Assembly (NCBI GenBank): GCA_020050685.1
Contig: JAGVKG010000068.1
Coordinates: 1 to 52,594 of the forward strand
Length of the DNA: 52,594 nt
DNA from: Candidatus Obscuribacterales bacterium
Lineage (GTDB): Bacteria; Cyanobacteriota; Vampirovibrionia; Obscuribacterales; Obscuribacteraceae
Direction of reading: 5' to 3'
The translations under genes and the position numbers were made by a program. The notes beneath the pieces are model-generated. The model worked only from the letters and a program-made list of their open reading frames with translations, made no database searches and was not told the origin of the DNA. Positions 19,350 through 33,215 of the stretch are shown here, piece after piece (positions within the stretch are counted from its first letter, which is position 1; the number at the start of each line of letters is the position of its first letter).

Positions 19350-20606
19350 TTGTCTAAGCGATACTTATTTACCTCTGAATCGGTAACCGAAGGTCATCCT
19401 GACAAGGTGTGCGACCAGATTTCTGACGCCATTCTTGATGCGATATTAACTGGCGATCCGAAGGCGCGTGTTGCTTGCGAATGCAGTGTGAGCACAGGGC
19501 TCGTTCTCGTATCCGGTGAAATCACCACCAATATTTATGTCGATGTGCCGGAAATTGTTCGCCAAAAGATAGCCGACATCGGTTACGAAGGTGAGCGCAG
19601 TGGCGGCTTCGATGCTCACAGTTGTGCCGTGTTGACGGCAATCAACAAGCAATCGCCAGACATTGCCTCTGGTGTAAGCAAGGCCTTGGAAGCAAGAGGC
19701 CAATCCAAAGACGAAATTGATGAAATTGGTGCAGGCGATCAAGGCATGATGTTTGGTTATGCCTGTAATGAAACACCAGAACTTATGCCGATGCCGATTT
19801 CCATTGCGCACCGCATTGCCAGAAGATTGGCTGAAGTGCGTAAGTCCGGAGCGCTCAAATATTTGCGTCCAGACGGCAAGTCGCAAGTGACAATTGAATA
19901 CGAAGAGGAAAAGCCGGTTCGCGTTGATTCAATTGTTATTTCTACTCAACACGATCCGGAAATTGCTGGCATCACCGATAACGATAAGCTGCAAGCAAAA
20001 ATTGCTGAAGATTTGAAAGCCTATGTAATTATGCCGGTCTTCCAAGATATTGCCGTTAAGCCGGATGACACGACTCGCTATTTGATCAATCCATCTGGAC
20101 GCTTCGTCGTCGGTGGACCGCAAGGCGATTGTGGTTTGACCGGACGCAAGATCATTGTCGACACCTATGGTGGTTATGCCCGTCATGGTGGCGGAGCATT
20201 TTCTGGTAAGGATCCAACCAAGGTTGATCGTTCTGCTGCATACGCGGCTCGCCACATGGCAAAAAATATTGTTGCCGCTGGTTTGGCTGAGCGTTGCGAA
20301 GTACAAATTGCCTATGCAATTGGTGTGGCTCGCCCAGTATCTGTGCATGTGACGACATTCGGCACTGGCAAACTTACCGATGACGAAATAACTGAGATCG
20401 CCAAGAAGATATTTGACTTGCGTCCAGCAGCAATCATCAAGAACTTTGATCTTTGCAATTTGCCAAAAGCCAGAAAGGGCAAGTTCTATCAGGAAGTCGC
20501 CGCTTATGGACATTTCGGTCGCAACGATCTCGATTTGCCATGGGAAAAGCTGGACCGCGTTGATGAGCTGAAGCAATCACTTTCAAAAGTTGCTCACGCT
20601 AAATAG
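19350..20606 (+). CDS. metK: S-adenosylmethionine synthetase (first copy)
   Basis: Makes SAM from methionine and ATP. 418 aa. Starts with TTG at 19350 after AAGGAG. Signature blocks: [33 protein letters not shown] (hexapeptide motif), [19 protein letters not shown] (P-loop-like phosphate-binding motif) and a C-terminal YGHFGR. Complete and apparently functional. It stands alone with its own leader, so it is the likely housekeeping enzyme. A second, clearly homologous copy is at 28569. Confidence 0.97.
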
Positions 20607-27094: not shown

Positions 27095-28021
27095 ATGCAA
27101 TGTTCCACCGATAATTATTCACGTTCCGGCAGATTTTCGGCAACTGCCATGGCACTGGCATTTGTTTGCCTTTTGCTTGGTCTCCTTTTCGGTCTGAATC
27201 AGCAAGCCAATGCCTGCCCGCGGCCTATCAAAGTTGTTTGTTCGATTTCGCCGTTGGCAAATATTGTTTCATCCATCGGTGGTGCAAAAGTTCAAGTCAA
27301 ATATTTCGTGCCGCCCGATGCCGATCCGCATAGCTTTGAGCCGACATTCTCTGCGCTTGAAGATGTTTCGCAAGCCCATCTGATTTTTCTCAATGGTGAT
27401 GGTTTGGATCATCTGGCTGAGGATTGTGTCAATAATGTAAAAGCAAGTGCTTGTCGAGTTATTAGTTTGTCCAATTCAATTCCACAGCAAGAAAAAAACG
27501 CAACCGATCCTCATTATTTCCTTGATCCAAAAATGGCCAAACTTTATGTCAAAGCGATTGCTCAAGCACTGAAAGAAATTGATCCGGAAGACGCAAAAGA
27601 ATTTGATGCTAACGCTAATAAATTTTGCCAGAAGCTCGATGATTTGGATTTGCGCTATCGATCTTTATGTCAGAAGTTGCCGCAGTCTCGTAAGGGTTTG
27701 GTTCTCTATCACAATTCGTGGACTTATCTTGCTGCAAGATATGGTTTCACTGTCGTGGGAGTTGTAGAGGAGTCTGGCGAAGGCGAACCATCTGCGCGTC
27801 ATCTGGCACATCTAATTAGAGATGCTAGAAAGGCTGGTGCCTTTGCAATTGTGGCAGAAGCAGAACACGGTTCCAAAATCTTGAACGTGATCAAAGAAGA
27901 GGCGAGAATTTCCCGAGTAATTCCAACAGTGGAAGATTCTCTTTCTAAGGCTCCTTACGACACATATTTGGGTATGCTCGAGGCCAATCTAAAACAATTT
28001 GCCAGTACAGATATGAATTGA
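27095..28021 (+). CDS. metal ABC transporter substrate-binding protein (ZnuA/TroA-like)
   Basis: About 309 aa from the ATG at 27095 (a TTG two codons earlier is also in frame). Signal peptide: hydrophobic MALAFVCLLLGLLFGLNQQANA, then mature CPRPIKVVCSISPLANI. Cluster A-1 family features: His in DADPHSFEP, His in DPHYFLDP and HNSWTYLAARYGF, and an acidic/His AEAEHGS near the C-terminus, which would bind Zn or Mn. The short loop lacks the long His-rich stretch of ZnuA proper. No permease or ATPase gene is adjacent, so its transporter must be elsewhere. Confidence 0.88.
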   Translation: MQCSTDNYSRSGRFSATAMALAFVCLLLGLLFGLNQQANACPRPIKVVCSISPLANIVSSIGGAKVQVKYFVPPDADPHSFEPTFSALEDVSQAHLIFLNGDGLDHLAEDCVNNVKASACRVISLSNSIPQQEKNATDPHYFLDPKMAKLYVKAIAQALKEIDPEDAKEFDANANKFCQKLDDLDLRYRSLCQKLPQSRKGLVLYHNSWTYLAARYGFTVVGVVEESGEGEPSARHLAHLIRDARKAGAFAIVAEAEHGSKILNVIKEEARISRVIPTVEDSLSKAPYDTYLGMLEANLKQFASTDMN

Positions 28022-28139: not shown

Positions 28140-28188
28140 GCTGTAAAAAACAGCAATACACACCCGGCGCAGGCAATTAGACCTGCGT
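28140..28188 (+). terminator. two hairpins after the znuA-like gene
   Basis: GCTGT/ACAGC (28140-28144 and 28150-28154, A-rich loop) and CGCAGG/CCTGCG (28168-28173 and 28182-28187), the second followed by TATCTACTTTTCT. The second is a plausible weak terminator. The rest of 28022-28350 shows no gene. Confidence 0.4.
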
Positions 28189-28352
28189 ATCTACTTTTCT
28201 GATCTGTATGCATCATTTACTGAGTCCGTTTCAGTTGCTTCTCAGATTTTGAATGCGTTTCTCAAAAACACCTGGGGTGCATGACGTAGAAAAGCCCGGA
28301 AAAGGTTCCCACCTTGTTGTCATCATCGTGGCGGAGTCTTAAAAAAAATTTC

Positions 28353-28382
28353 TTGACAGACGTAGGCTGACCAACCTAAGCT
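28353..28382 (+). promoter_or_regulatory. possible promoter of the metK2 operon
   Basis: A perfect TTGACA (28353-28358) is followed 18 bp later by TAAGCT (28377-28382), a poor -10. If used, transcription would start about 28389-28390, right at the ATG of the short leader ORF. A promoter further upstream cannot be excluded. Confidence 0.4.
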
Positions 28383-28389
28383 GGTGGCT

Positions 28390-28485
28390 ATGAATAAGCA
28401 ACTGCTTACTATGAACGCGATGATGTTGATGTCCTGCTTTGTCAGGGGGTCACGTCCTTTGTATTTGTATCTAGATAGTAAGTAA
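28390..28485 (+). CDS. Met-rich leader peptide of the metK2 operon (candidate)
   Basis: 31 codons from the ATG at 28390 to TAA at 28483-28485. Met is at positions 1, 8, 11, 12 and 14, i.e. four Met in seven consecutive codons (28411-28431). The C-terminal half reads SRPLYLYLDSK. The Shine-Dalgarno is poor (GGTGG only two bases from the ATG), so it would need leaderless initiation. It is placed between a TTGACA box and a strong terminator that precedes a SAM synthetase gene, as expected for a translation-coupled attenuator sensing methionine. It is too short to be judged coding by composition; the case rests on context. Confidence 0.5.
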   Translation: MNKQLLTMNAMMLMSCFVRGSRPLYLYLDSK

Positions 28486-28519
28486 TAGCGACAAACATCA
28501 ACAGGATCTGCAGGCCCCC
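28424..28519 (+). promoter_or_regulatory. alternative leader RNA pairings upstream of metK2
   Basis: Stem A: TGTTGATGT (28424-28432) with ACATCAACA (28495-28503), extendable with TTTGTC (28438-28443) and GACAAA (28490-28495). Stem B: GGGGGTC (28445-28451) with GGCCCCC (28513-28519, one G-T wobble), plus GTCCT (28454-28458) with AGGAT (28503-28507). Stem B uses the 5' arm of the terminator, so it is a candidate antiterminator. A and B together would form an H-type pseudoknot. No known SAM riboswitch consensus was recognised. Confidence 0.5.
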
Positions 28520-28543
28520 GATTAATCGGGGGCTTTTTCTTTT
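28514..28543 (+). terminator. intrinsic terminator in the metK2 leader
   Basis: GCCCCCGATTAATCGGGGGC (28514-28533) is a perfect 20-bp palindrome folding into an 8-bp GC-rich stem with a TTAA loop. It is followed by TTTTTCTTTT. It lies 26 bases before the metK2 ATG, within the leader, so expression of metK2 should require read-through or an internal start. This is the strongest terminator seen in the window. Confidence 0.85.
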
Positions 28544-28568
28544 ATCTATTTATTAAAGAGAGGAATTT

Positions 28569-29828
28569 ATGTCAAAGACAACTTTATTTACATCAGAATC
28601 AGTAACGGAAGGACACCCCGATAAAATCTGCGACCAAATCTCCGATGCGATAGTCGACGCCATTTTGGCCGAAGATCCGGAGGCACGTGTAGCTGCCGAG
28701 ACTGTAGCCACCACCGGTGTGGTTCTGGTGACCGGCGAAATAAGCACAAAAACTTATGTTGACATTCCGGCATTGGTTAGAAGAGTCGTGTCTGATATAG
28801 GCTACAGTGGGCATCAGGCAGGCGGCTTCGATGCCTCTACTTGTGCAGTATTTACAGCCATAGATGAACAGTCGCCTGAAATTGCTACGGGAGTAAGCGT
28901 TGCATTGGAGCATCGCAATTCACTGTCTGATCCAGCGTTCGATGCTATTGGTGCTGGCGATCAGGGAATTATATTTGGCTATGCCTCAAATGAAACATCT
29001 GACTACTTGCCATTGGCTATTGTTGCTGCCAATCGCATTGCTAAGCGTCTTGCCTATGTCCGCAAAGCCGGGATCCTTCCCTATTTGCGTCCGGATGGTA
29101 AAACGCAAGTAACGATTGAGTATAAGGACAACCAGCCGGTACGAGTTCACTCGATTGTTATTTCGGCGCAGCATGATCCTCAAATCGCGGAAATTTCAGA
29201 CAACGTTGGATTGCAAGAACGTATAGCACGAGATTTAAGAGTTCAGGTCATCGAACCTGTATTTACTGAATTGGCTGTTAAACCGGACGATGATACCAAG
29301 TTCTACATAAATCCCTCTGGGCGATTTGTTAGTGGTGGCCCACAAAGTGATTCAGGTTTGACAGGCAGAAAAATTATTGTTGATACTTACGGTGGTTATG
29401 CACGGCATGGTGGTGGCGCCTTTTCTGGTAAGGATCCGACAAAAGTCGATCGTAGTGCAGCCTACGCTGCTAGGCATGCAGCCAAAAATATTGTTGCTGC
29501 AGGTATTGCTGAACGTTGTGAAATTCAGATTGCCTATGCAATTGGAGTTGCTCGACCTATTTCCATCAACGTCACAACATTTGGTACAGGCAAGTTGAGT
29601 GACGAGGAAATTACCGAGTTAGTTGAGAAGACCTTTGATTTGCGGCCAGCCGCGATCATTGATCGATTCCAACTGCGCTATTTGCCAAAACTGCGTGGTG
29701 GTCGGTTCTATAGGGATGTAGCTGCCTATGGACACTTTGGTCGGCCGGATCTCGAGCTTCCTTGGGAAGAACTCAACTATGCCAATCAGCTGAAAGAGGC
29801 TTTGCTGAAGAGCTCGTCTCGTTCATAG
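28569..29828 (+). CDS. metK: S-adenosylmethionine synthetase (second copy)
   Basis: 419 aa. All catalytic motifs are intact: [52 protein letters not shown] and YGHFGR. It is closely similar to the copy at 19350 over the full length but diverged at many positions, so it is not a recent duplication. Good Shine-Dalgarno (AGAGAGGAA) before the ATG. First gene of a tight + strand operon with an unknown protein, a methyltransferase and a dioxygenase (gaps of 33, 44 and 19 bp). This suggests a dedicated SAM supply for that pathway. Expression is probably controlled by the leader terminator. Confidence 0.96.
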
Positions 29829-31600: not shown

Positions 31601-32347
31601 ATGACCGGACTCGACTACTTTTCCAAGCAAGCATCTGATTATGCTCGCTATCGCTTTGGCTATCCTCAGGAATTGATCAAGGAAATAGCTTCGCTAACAA
31701 ATGAGAGAAACTTGGTGTGGGATTGCGGTACTGGCAGCGGGCAGGCGGCAGTTAGTCTGGCTGAATACTTCGGGCATGTGGTGGCAACCGATATAAGTGA
31801 GCGGCAAATCGCTAATGCAGTCTGCCACGAACGCGTTGATTATCGAGTTTGCGCAGCTGACAATTCGGGATTGAAGGACCAAAGTGTAGACTTGGTAACA
31901 GCAGCTCAAGCTGCACACTGGTTCGATCTTGATCGATTTTACGTAGAGTGCAGGAGAGTTCTCAAACCAAAAGGAGCAGTTGTGCTATGGTGCTACACTC
32001 TACCTAAGAGTAGAGAGGAAATTGACAGGTTAGTTAACCGTTATTATCACGAGGTGCTAGCACCATTTTGGTCACCTTGTCTTAAGCTGGTTGATAACGG
32101 TTATAAGGACTTGCCGTTTCCGTTTCATGAGATCTCTTTCGGTACCTATGAAGCGGAAACGCGATGGAGTTTTTCTGATCTTCAAGGACATTTGAACAGT
32201 TGGTCTGCAGCTCAGGAATTCCAACGAGTCAATAGGAAAGACCCATTTGCTCTCATTCGTGAAGAATTAGCAGCTGCTTGGGGAGATCCAAACACTGTGG
32301 TGACTTTCCGCTGGCCGTTACATATAAAAGCCGGCCGCATAGACTAG
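31601..32347 (+). CDS. class I SAM-dependent methyltransferase
   Basis: 248 aa. Begins TGLDYFSKQASDYARYRFGYP, as in the trans-aconitate methyltransferase/Crg1-like group of type-11 methyltransferases. The SAM-binding motif I is VWDCGTGSGQAA (residues 39-50), followed by the acidic end of strand 2 in VVATDIS (about 60-66). Motif II/III regions are DYRVCAADNSGL and AAQAAHWFDLDRFY. Strong GGAGG before the ATG. The substrate is unknown; it is presumably the main consumer of SAM from metK2. Confidence 0.9.
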   Translation: MTGLDYFSKQASDYARYRFGYPQELIKEIASLTNERNLVWDCGTGSGQAAVSLAEYFGHVVATDISERQIANAVCHERVDYRVCAADNSGLKDQSVDLVTAAQAAHWFDLDRFYVECRRVLKPKGAVVLWCYTLPKSREEIDRLVNRYYHEVLAPFWSPCLKLVDNGYKDLPFPFHEISFGTYEAETRWSFSDLQGHLNSWSAAQEFQRVNRKDPFALIREELAAAWGDPNTVVTFRWPLHIKAGRID

Positions 32348-32366: not shown

Positions 32367-33215
32367 ATGACAATTGAAATTATAACTTCACCAATAGATA
32401 ATGCGATTTTACGTTTGAATATTTACGCTGGAAAAATTCTTCGTTTGCCAGCAACGGAGGCAAGCAGAGATCTAGTGGGTGAGATTATTCAAATTGTAGA
32501 AAAGGAATTTGGTGAAGAGTATCGCAAAGCCCAATTTCGACTCTCGTTCGATCAGTTTAAACAAGCTGTCTTAAGAACAAAAAAACAAATTTACAACAAT
32601 CAAGAGCTTTTGAGTAAATTGTCTAGAGTGATTACCAATGTCGGCTTTACGCTTGAAGAAAATGCTATTGATCCCATTCGTGTTCGTACTGTTCCCCATG
32701 GTGCTCATGAAACTGAGAATTCAGCACCGGCATTTATATTTCACAGGGACACATGGTTGGCCAACCCACAAGCACAAATCAACTGGTGGATCCCCCTGCA
32801 TGATGTCAGTGAGCAGGAGACTTTTAGTCTCTATCCAGGCTACTTCAGTAAAGCCATTGCTAACAGTTCCAACAATTTTGATTATGCGCAATGGGTCAAA
32901 GTTGTCGGCTTCAACAATTCGTATGCCAATCCGAGCCAGGCAAATTTATATCCGACGATAACTGGTGACGAGCCGAATGATAATGAGGCTCTGAAATTCT
33001 CTGCAAGTGCTGGCGATATCATAATCTTTTCCGGAGCCCATCTTCATAGGACCAATCATAATTCGTCCGGAAGCACACGGTTCAGCATTGACTTTCGCAC
33101 CGTTAACCTTGACGATCACCAAAGCAATATTGGTGCCCCTAATGCAGATAGTCGATGCAGTGGATCTGCCTTGGTTGATTACCTTCAACCAAATCACGCT
33201 CTGTCAACTGTTTGA
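32367..33215 (+). CDS. Fe(II)/2-oxoglutarate-dependent dioxygenase (PhyH-like)
   Basis: 282 aa. The facial triad is visible: His126 and Asp128 in FIFHRDTWLANP, and a distal His (225 or 227) in FSGAHLHRTNHNSSG. Arg238 in TRFSIDFRTV is placed to bind 2-oxoglutarate. QINWWIPLHDV lies between them, as in phytanoyl-CoA-dioxygenase-like enzymes. Such enzymes hydroxylate, desaturate or halogenate small molecules; Asp128 argues against halogenation. Strong GAGGAGGG before the ATG. Last gene of the operon, ending 10 bp from a convergent small gene. Confidence 0.88.
   Translation: MTIEIITSPIDNAILRLNIYAGKILRLPATEASRDLVGEIIQIVEKEFGEEYRKAQFRLSFDQFKQAVLRTKKQIYNNQELLSKLSRVITNVGFTLEENAIDPIRVRTVPHGAHETENSAPAFIFHRDTWLANPQAQINWWIPLHDVSEQETFSLYPGYFSKAIANSSNNFDYAQWVKVVGFNNSYANPSQANLYPTITGDEPNDNEALKFSASAGDIIIFSGAHLHRTNHNSSGSTRFSIDFRTVNLDDHQSNIGAPNADSRCSGSALVDYLQPNHALSTV

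Follow-up and report, generated by a model that had tools for sequence, protein, structure and literature searches.

A candidate methionine-codon leader-peptide attenuator upstream of a SAM synthetase operon

Known leader regulators and the metK2 locus

Leader-peptide attenuators that sense amino acids other than methionine are well known, and induction on scarcity is the usual logic for biosynthetic operons. Synthesis of S-adenosylmethionine (SAM) is usually regulated by SAM itself, via riboswitches or repressors. The leader RNAs that act in cis on SAM synthetase and methionine genes include the SAM riboswitches (SAM-I, which commonly acts on a terminator, and others) and the Streptomyces-metK RNA (RF03076). 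An earlier note on the DNA studied here stated that no described Met-codon attenuator is known for metK. We found none in the open-access literature, which was the scope of our search. The statement must be qualified in one respect, since Met-codon attenuation has been proposed for metNIQ of Streptomyces lividans TK24 (PMC8079986). There, the proposed metL leader peptide is leaderless and has 29 codons, with Met codons among them; according to the paper, a typical Rho-independent terminator is missing (PMC8079986). This is the nearest precedent that we found. According to a 2010 survey, demonstrated leader-peptide systems had until then been confined to Proteobacteria and Actinobacteria; the survey added Firmicutes (PMC2965389). 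The searchable papers yielded no published case of leader-peptide attenuation in the source lineage.

The leader of metK2 shares several properties with these systems. Like Escherichia coli pheL-pheA and trpL-trpE (RF01859, RF00513), it has a short ORF, clustered regulatory codons and a matching stall profile. In addition, the arm that holds these codons pairs with RNA immediately ahead of the terminator. Conversely, the metK2 leader would sense methionine, and its target uses, rather than makes, the sensed amino acid. Its antiterminator 5' arm is inside the ORF, and this ORF exceeds theirs in length (31 codons) and is probably leaderless. We claim no sequence homology. The likeness to S. lividans metL is a Met-codon ORF, leaderless there and probably so here, ahead of a methionine-related operon. 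The differences are that metL precedes a Met importer, has less clustered Met codons and is without the typical terminator. Unlike the SAM riboswitches and RF03076, the metK2 leader carries a Met-rich ORF and gives no match at the gathering threshold.

The locus lies in a window of 52,594 nt, the whole stretch of DNA analysed, which is one contig of a 4.2 Mb assembly (70 contigs, 98.7% complete). SAM synthetase is encoded twice in the genome, by metK1 (19350-20606) and metK2, and both genes are within the window. They are 70% identical. The two paralogues are separated by 8 kb. MetK2 scores far over the cut-off of the NCBIfam equivalog metK. Its alignment with SAM synthetases of solved structure covers the full length, and the HPDK, GAGDQG and GGGAFSGKD motifs are intact. 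Three genes follow, encoding a 564-aa protein, a methyltransferase and an oxygenase. The spacing of these genes is 19-44 nt and, hence, a four-gene operon is likely. The coordinates are collected in Table 1. As a separate observation, distant relatives of the 564-aa protein (33-37% identity) occur in only three other family genomes, where there is no adjoining metK. Two scans of genome contigs, one made with this protein and the other with a fragment of metK2, turned up no close relative (best 59%).

Table 1. Features of the metK2 leader and the putative operon.
Feature	Coordinates	Strand	Basis or description
Probable promoter, upstream half (A-tract 28341-28348 adjoining consensus -35 TTGACA 28353-28358)	28341-28358	+	sequence; inference
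Probable -10 hexamer TAAGCT, 18 nt past the -35	28377-28382	+	sequence
Leader ORF, 31 codons, peptide MNKQLLTMNAMMLMSCFVRGSRPLYLYLDSK	28390-28485	+	sequence
Default hairpin of untranslated RNA, rival to the antiterminator (outer stem 28403-28412 with 28475-28484)	28403-28484	+	MFE fold
Met codons 8 (28411), 11 (28420), 12 (28423) and 14 (28429), proposed stall sites	28411-28431	+	sequence; ribosome-position scan
Stem A, anti-antiterminator (28424-28432 with 28495-28503)	28424-28503	+	fold
Antiterminator hairpin	28445-28519	+	fold; ribosome-position scan
Intrinsic terminator, 10-bp stem and U-rich tract	28512-28543	+	terminator scan; fold
Shine-Dalgarno of metK2, AGAGAGGA	28557-28564	+	sequence
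metK2	28569-29828	+	S-adenosylmethionine synthetase, 419 aa
Putative operon gene 2, 564 aa	29862-31556	+	no Pfam or NCBIfam match
Class I SAM-dependent methyltransferase	31601-32347	+	
PhyH-like Fe(II)/2-oxoglutarate oxygenase	32367-33215	+	weak match

Elements and predicted folding of the leader

The earlier note had pointed to a 31-codon ORF with four Met codons in seven positions, and this ORF is present. Thus, the leader has a putative short ORF with a codon cluster for the amino acid that would be sensed. The ORF has no Shine-Dalgarno at a usable spacing. A short ORF with four Met among seven codons arose in 2 of 30,000 Markov-simulated leaders of 216 nt (about 0.02% or less). Across the 4.2 Mb genome there are 79 ATGATGNNNATG sites, and the metK2 leader is the only one with a short ORF and a strong terminator no more than 250 nt away; one other site has a weak terminator candidate. 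On both strands of a 0.85 Mb genome sample we counted 12 leader-position terminators and 29 nearby short ORFs. The sole Met cluster was that of the metK2 leader. No further copy of this leader, or of its peptide, was found in the same genome.

The strong intrinsic terminator that had been noticed inside the metK2 leader was also found. Its stem (28512-28535) is AGGCCCCCGA UUAA UCGGGGGCUU, and the U-rich tract then runs to ~28543. The stem ends 33 nt before metK2, so that an intrinsic terminator lies between the leader ORF and the first gene. Both of the pairings proposed at the outset were verified on the sequence. In stem A, which overlaps the Met codons, TGTTGATGT pairs with ACATCAACA. In the antiterminator, GGGGGTC (28445-28451) pairs with GGCCCCC (28513-28519) of the terminator 5' arm, and GTCCT (28454-28458) pairs with AGGAT (28503-28507). 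The folding model adds pairs at 28459-28461/28499-28501, 28464-28468/28491-28495 and 28471-28473/28486-28488. This lengthens the antiterminator to 28445-28473 with 28486-28519 and uses up much of the stem A 3' arm.

The transcript was folded, at equilibrium, to the end of the terminator 5' arm with a ribosome footprint at each codon in turn. The score is the free energy gained when the terminator 5' arm pairs with upstream RNA. Without a ribosome, the antiterminator gain was -2.2 kcal/mol. A ribosome at codons 6-9 gave -4 to -5 kcal/mol, one at codons 10-14 gave -11 to -12 kcal/mol and one at codon 15 gave -9 kcal/mol. At codons 16-30 the gain was -0.3 to -0.8 kcal/mol (about -0.3 at codons 21-28); stem A appears in the fold when the ribosome occupies codons 21-29. 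On the stop codon, the ribosome gave -3.7 kcal/mol; some antiterminator is thus left, as without a ribosome. Therefore, according to this profile, the antiterminator becomes the obligatory fold when the ribosome stalls at Met11, Met12 or Met14, and is precluded once the ribosome has passed codon 16. Hence, the predicted folding has a mutually exclusive antiterminator that would be freed by a stall on the regulatory codons. The earlier note had leaned to this same direction of control.

The three-state logic was reproduced by none of 400 dinucleotide shuffles and none of 400 codon shuffles. Antiterminator strength with a stall at Met11 exceeded that of 299 of 300 shuffles, and with a stall at Met14 that of all 300. 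The profile held across five footprint sizes. It also held for most 5' ends between 28360 and 28393, and looked cleanest for those at 28387-28393. In the model, a transcript beginning at 28353 had no default to termination (-7.9), and one beginning at 28384 had a weaker gain at Met11-14 (-6 to -9).

As a positive control, Trp leaders of the family were weak; a clear signature was obtained for only 1 of 9. Attenuators of E. coli MG1655 were added as controls for this reason. The trpL, pheL, thrL and leuL leaders gave a like profile, with the peak at Trp, Phe, Thr and Leu codons respectively, and zero afterwards. The hisL leader scored weakly, and the ilvL terminator was not found by the terminator rule used. 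Thus, given the family Trp leaders and hisL, the folding metric is not a complete detector. In the 0.85 Mb sample, the signature rule was passed by 0 of 33 ORF-terminator pairs; these included the metK2 leader itself, started automatically at GTG 28384, which scored -7.0 against a strict threshold of -8. The amino-acid attenuator architecture proposed in the earlier note is borne out in ribosome-placement folding, where the critical window falls on the Met codons and the four E. coli leaders are recovered. What is established is that the sequence elements exist, that they are non-random and that folding predicts three states.

The attenuation model and its alternatives

From the elements and the folding model, we think it probable that the metK2 leader is a trp/phe-type leader-peptide transcription attenuator that senses methionine, with the operon switched on when Met-tRNA is scarce. 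For the transcription start, leader translation, stalling, antitermination and the methionine signal we infer the following. Transcription would begin at the leader ATG or slightly ahead of it, and a ribosome would trail RNA polymerase. With plentiful Met-tRNA, the ribosome would move past codon 16 and cover the antiterminator 5' arm. Stem A would then form behind the ribosome, the terminator would fold and transcription would end before metK2. With scarce elongator Met-tRNA, the ribosome would stall at codons 11-14. The stalled ribosome would block stem A and the default hairpin and leave the RNA from 28445 onwards free. The free antiterminator would capture the terminator 5' arm, and the metK2 operon would be transcribed. 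With no translation, the default hairpin would mostly leave the terminator free.

The architecture is real, non-random and coherent, and most likely methionine-specific. We lean towards regarding it as the first Met-codon leader-peptide attenuator of a SAM synthetase, with a leaderless ORF, in which Met-tRNA rather than SAM would control an operon of metK2 with methyltransferase and oxygenase genes, in a lineage for which leader-peptide attenuation is not known to have been described. If so, Met-tRNA charging would switch on a Met-consuming enzyme, and SAM supply would be uncoupled from the SAM level. The repertoire of classical attenuation with an intrinsic terminator would also gain methionine as a sensed amino acid. 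From a metabolic standpoint the proposed control is odd, since low Met-tRNA would induce an enzyme that consumes methionine; such a response is unusual for a SAM synthetase. Our guess is that MetK2 is a low-Km isozyme for low methionine, or that it supplies the methyltransferase of the operon. Either would explain the logic.

The best match in a search of the leader against all of Rfam was Phe_leader (RF01859), at full length, with 29.6 bits and E=0.0026-0.0068. This is short of the 55-bit gathering threshold; the metK2 leader works alike in this comparison and is not a member. The codon-bearing 5' stem arm of the match falls on the Met codons, its terminator falls on that of the metK2 leader, and stem A sits where the Phe_leader 1:2 stem sits. 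Sub-threshold matches of the leader to Rfam sRNAs were dismissed, because what they matched was the generic terminator hairpin. No Rfam riboswitch was found in the window at threshold, and at the metK2 leader there was no SAM riboswitch covariance-model match at threshold. A Met-specific T-box was seen neither at threshold in the window nor among the weak leader matches. SAM-I was found in none of 50 family genomes.

These searches bear on a different reading of the stall. The leader could be an attenuator in which stalling does not come from scarce Met-tRNA; instead, the peptide or RNA would sense another signal (SAM, methionine, an antibiotic or slow translation), and the Met codons would be in part a by-product of stem A. 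We regard this as unlikely. The stall window spans six codons (10-15), with Ala, Leu and Ser besides Met. Furthermore, the repeat GATGATGTTGATG doubles as the stem A 5' arm, so ATG triplets could be favoured by the demands of pairing, and induction of metK at low Met is not an obvious logic. However, stem A takes only 28424-28432, which leaves out Met8, Met11 and base 1 of the Met12 codon, and a riboswitch match from Rfam is lacking.

The probable promoter bears on a second alternative. The arrangement TTGACA-18-TAAGCT would probably put the transcript start at ~28389-28390. The leader ORF would, with such a start, probably be leaderless or nearly so. The predicted start agrees with the 5' ends (28387-28393) that give the sharpest folding signature. 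Against the attenuator reading count the -10 element, which is only moderate, and the missing Shine-Dalgarno of the leader ORF. Only T1, A2 and T6 of TAAGCT agree with the -10 consensus, and a simple promoter scan did not report this hexamer.

A moderate, terminator-like hairpin (GCGCAGGCAATTAGACCTGCGT, 28167-28188) lies ~145 nt past znuA. The terminator of the metK2 leader might simply end upstream transcription, from znuA or as the end of a small RNA (28390-28543). Expression of metK2 would then depend on a separate promoter within the 33 nt that follow, or on leaky readthrough, and the Met ORF would be an untranslated product of chance. The ORF without a Shine-Dalgarno, the AT-rich 33 nt between the terminator and the metK2 ATG and the moderate strength of the hairpin after znuA would all fit. 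We nonetheless hold this to be quite improbable. Transcription of znuA has its own terminator candidate at that hairpin, and the gene ends at 28021, ~490 nt upstream. The consensus -35 at 28353 is also against it, and a 33-nt gap offers little room for a promoter and a Shine-Dalgarno. Moreover, the Met cluster, the antiterminator and their register would all become coincidences. Finally, the ORF might encode a functional small hydrophobic peptide with a Met/Leu-rich N-terminal half, the RNA structures serving its own expression or stability, and MNKQLLTMNAMMLMSCFV is indeed hydrophobic, but the run is short (~14 residues), there is no second genome copy and the register of stem and terminator is left unexplained, so that we consider this very improbable.

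Relatives of metK2 and Trp leaders of the family

Among 50 family genomes, metK2 occurs only in the source genome; none of the 49 others has a metK2-type second copy. A second near-full-length metK is present in only one of those 49 (G013) and is 50% identical. Searches of the 49 genomes for leader-like DNA gave only chance matches of 18-32 nt. The Met ORF was absent from the relatives' metK leaders examined. A terminator-like hairpin within 450 nt was seen at only three of the relatives' metK genes, and these hairpins are weaker than the metK2-leader terminator. The two observations mean no more than that the device is tied to metK2. No Met leader was found before metH at any of 30 family loci, and none was seen before the CBS/cgs/metH operon of the source genome.

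Trp leaders are frequent in the family. An automatic rule found a Trp-rich short ORF at 27 of 30 trpE loci; it picked the wrong frame at a few (e.g. L230, L240), where a proper leader is present. A Trp leader together with a terminator precedes trpE at 22 or more, at least, of these 30 loci (L218-L247). Hence, the family appears to make use of leader-peptide attenuation. Taken with the Trp leaders of relatives, the metK2 leader would extend the mechanism to a lineage of probably non-photosynthetic relatives of cyanobacteria. Unlike its relatives, the source genome showed no Trp leader in the fetched region upstream of its own trpE (L231).

The family Trp leaders likewise have no evident Shine-Dalgarno; therefore, leader ORFs of this kind are normal there. 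They differ from the metK2 leader in their codons, in their terminator sequence and in being spread across genera. Their peptides contain WWxW, often followed by PGKxxPGW, and the usual terminator is CCGCAGGCUU...CCUGCGG with a U-run. The distance from the leader stop codon to the terminator is similar, at 26-42 nt in the Trp leaders measured and 26 nt in the metK2 leader.
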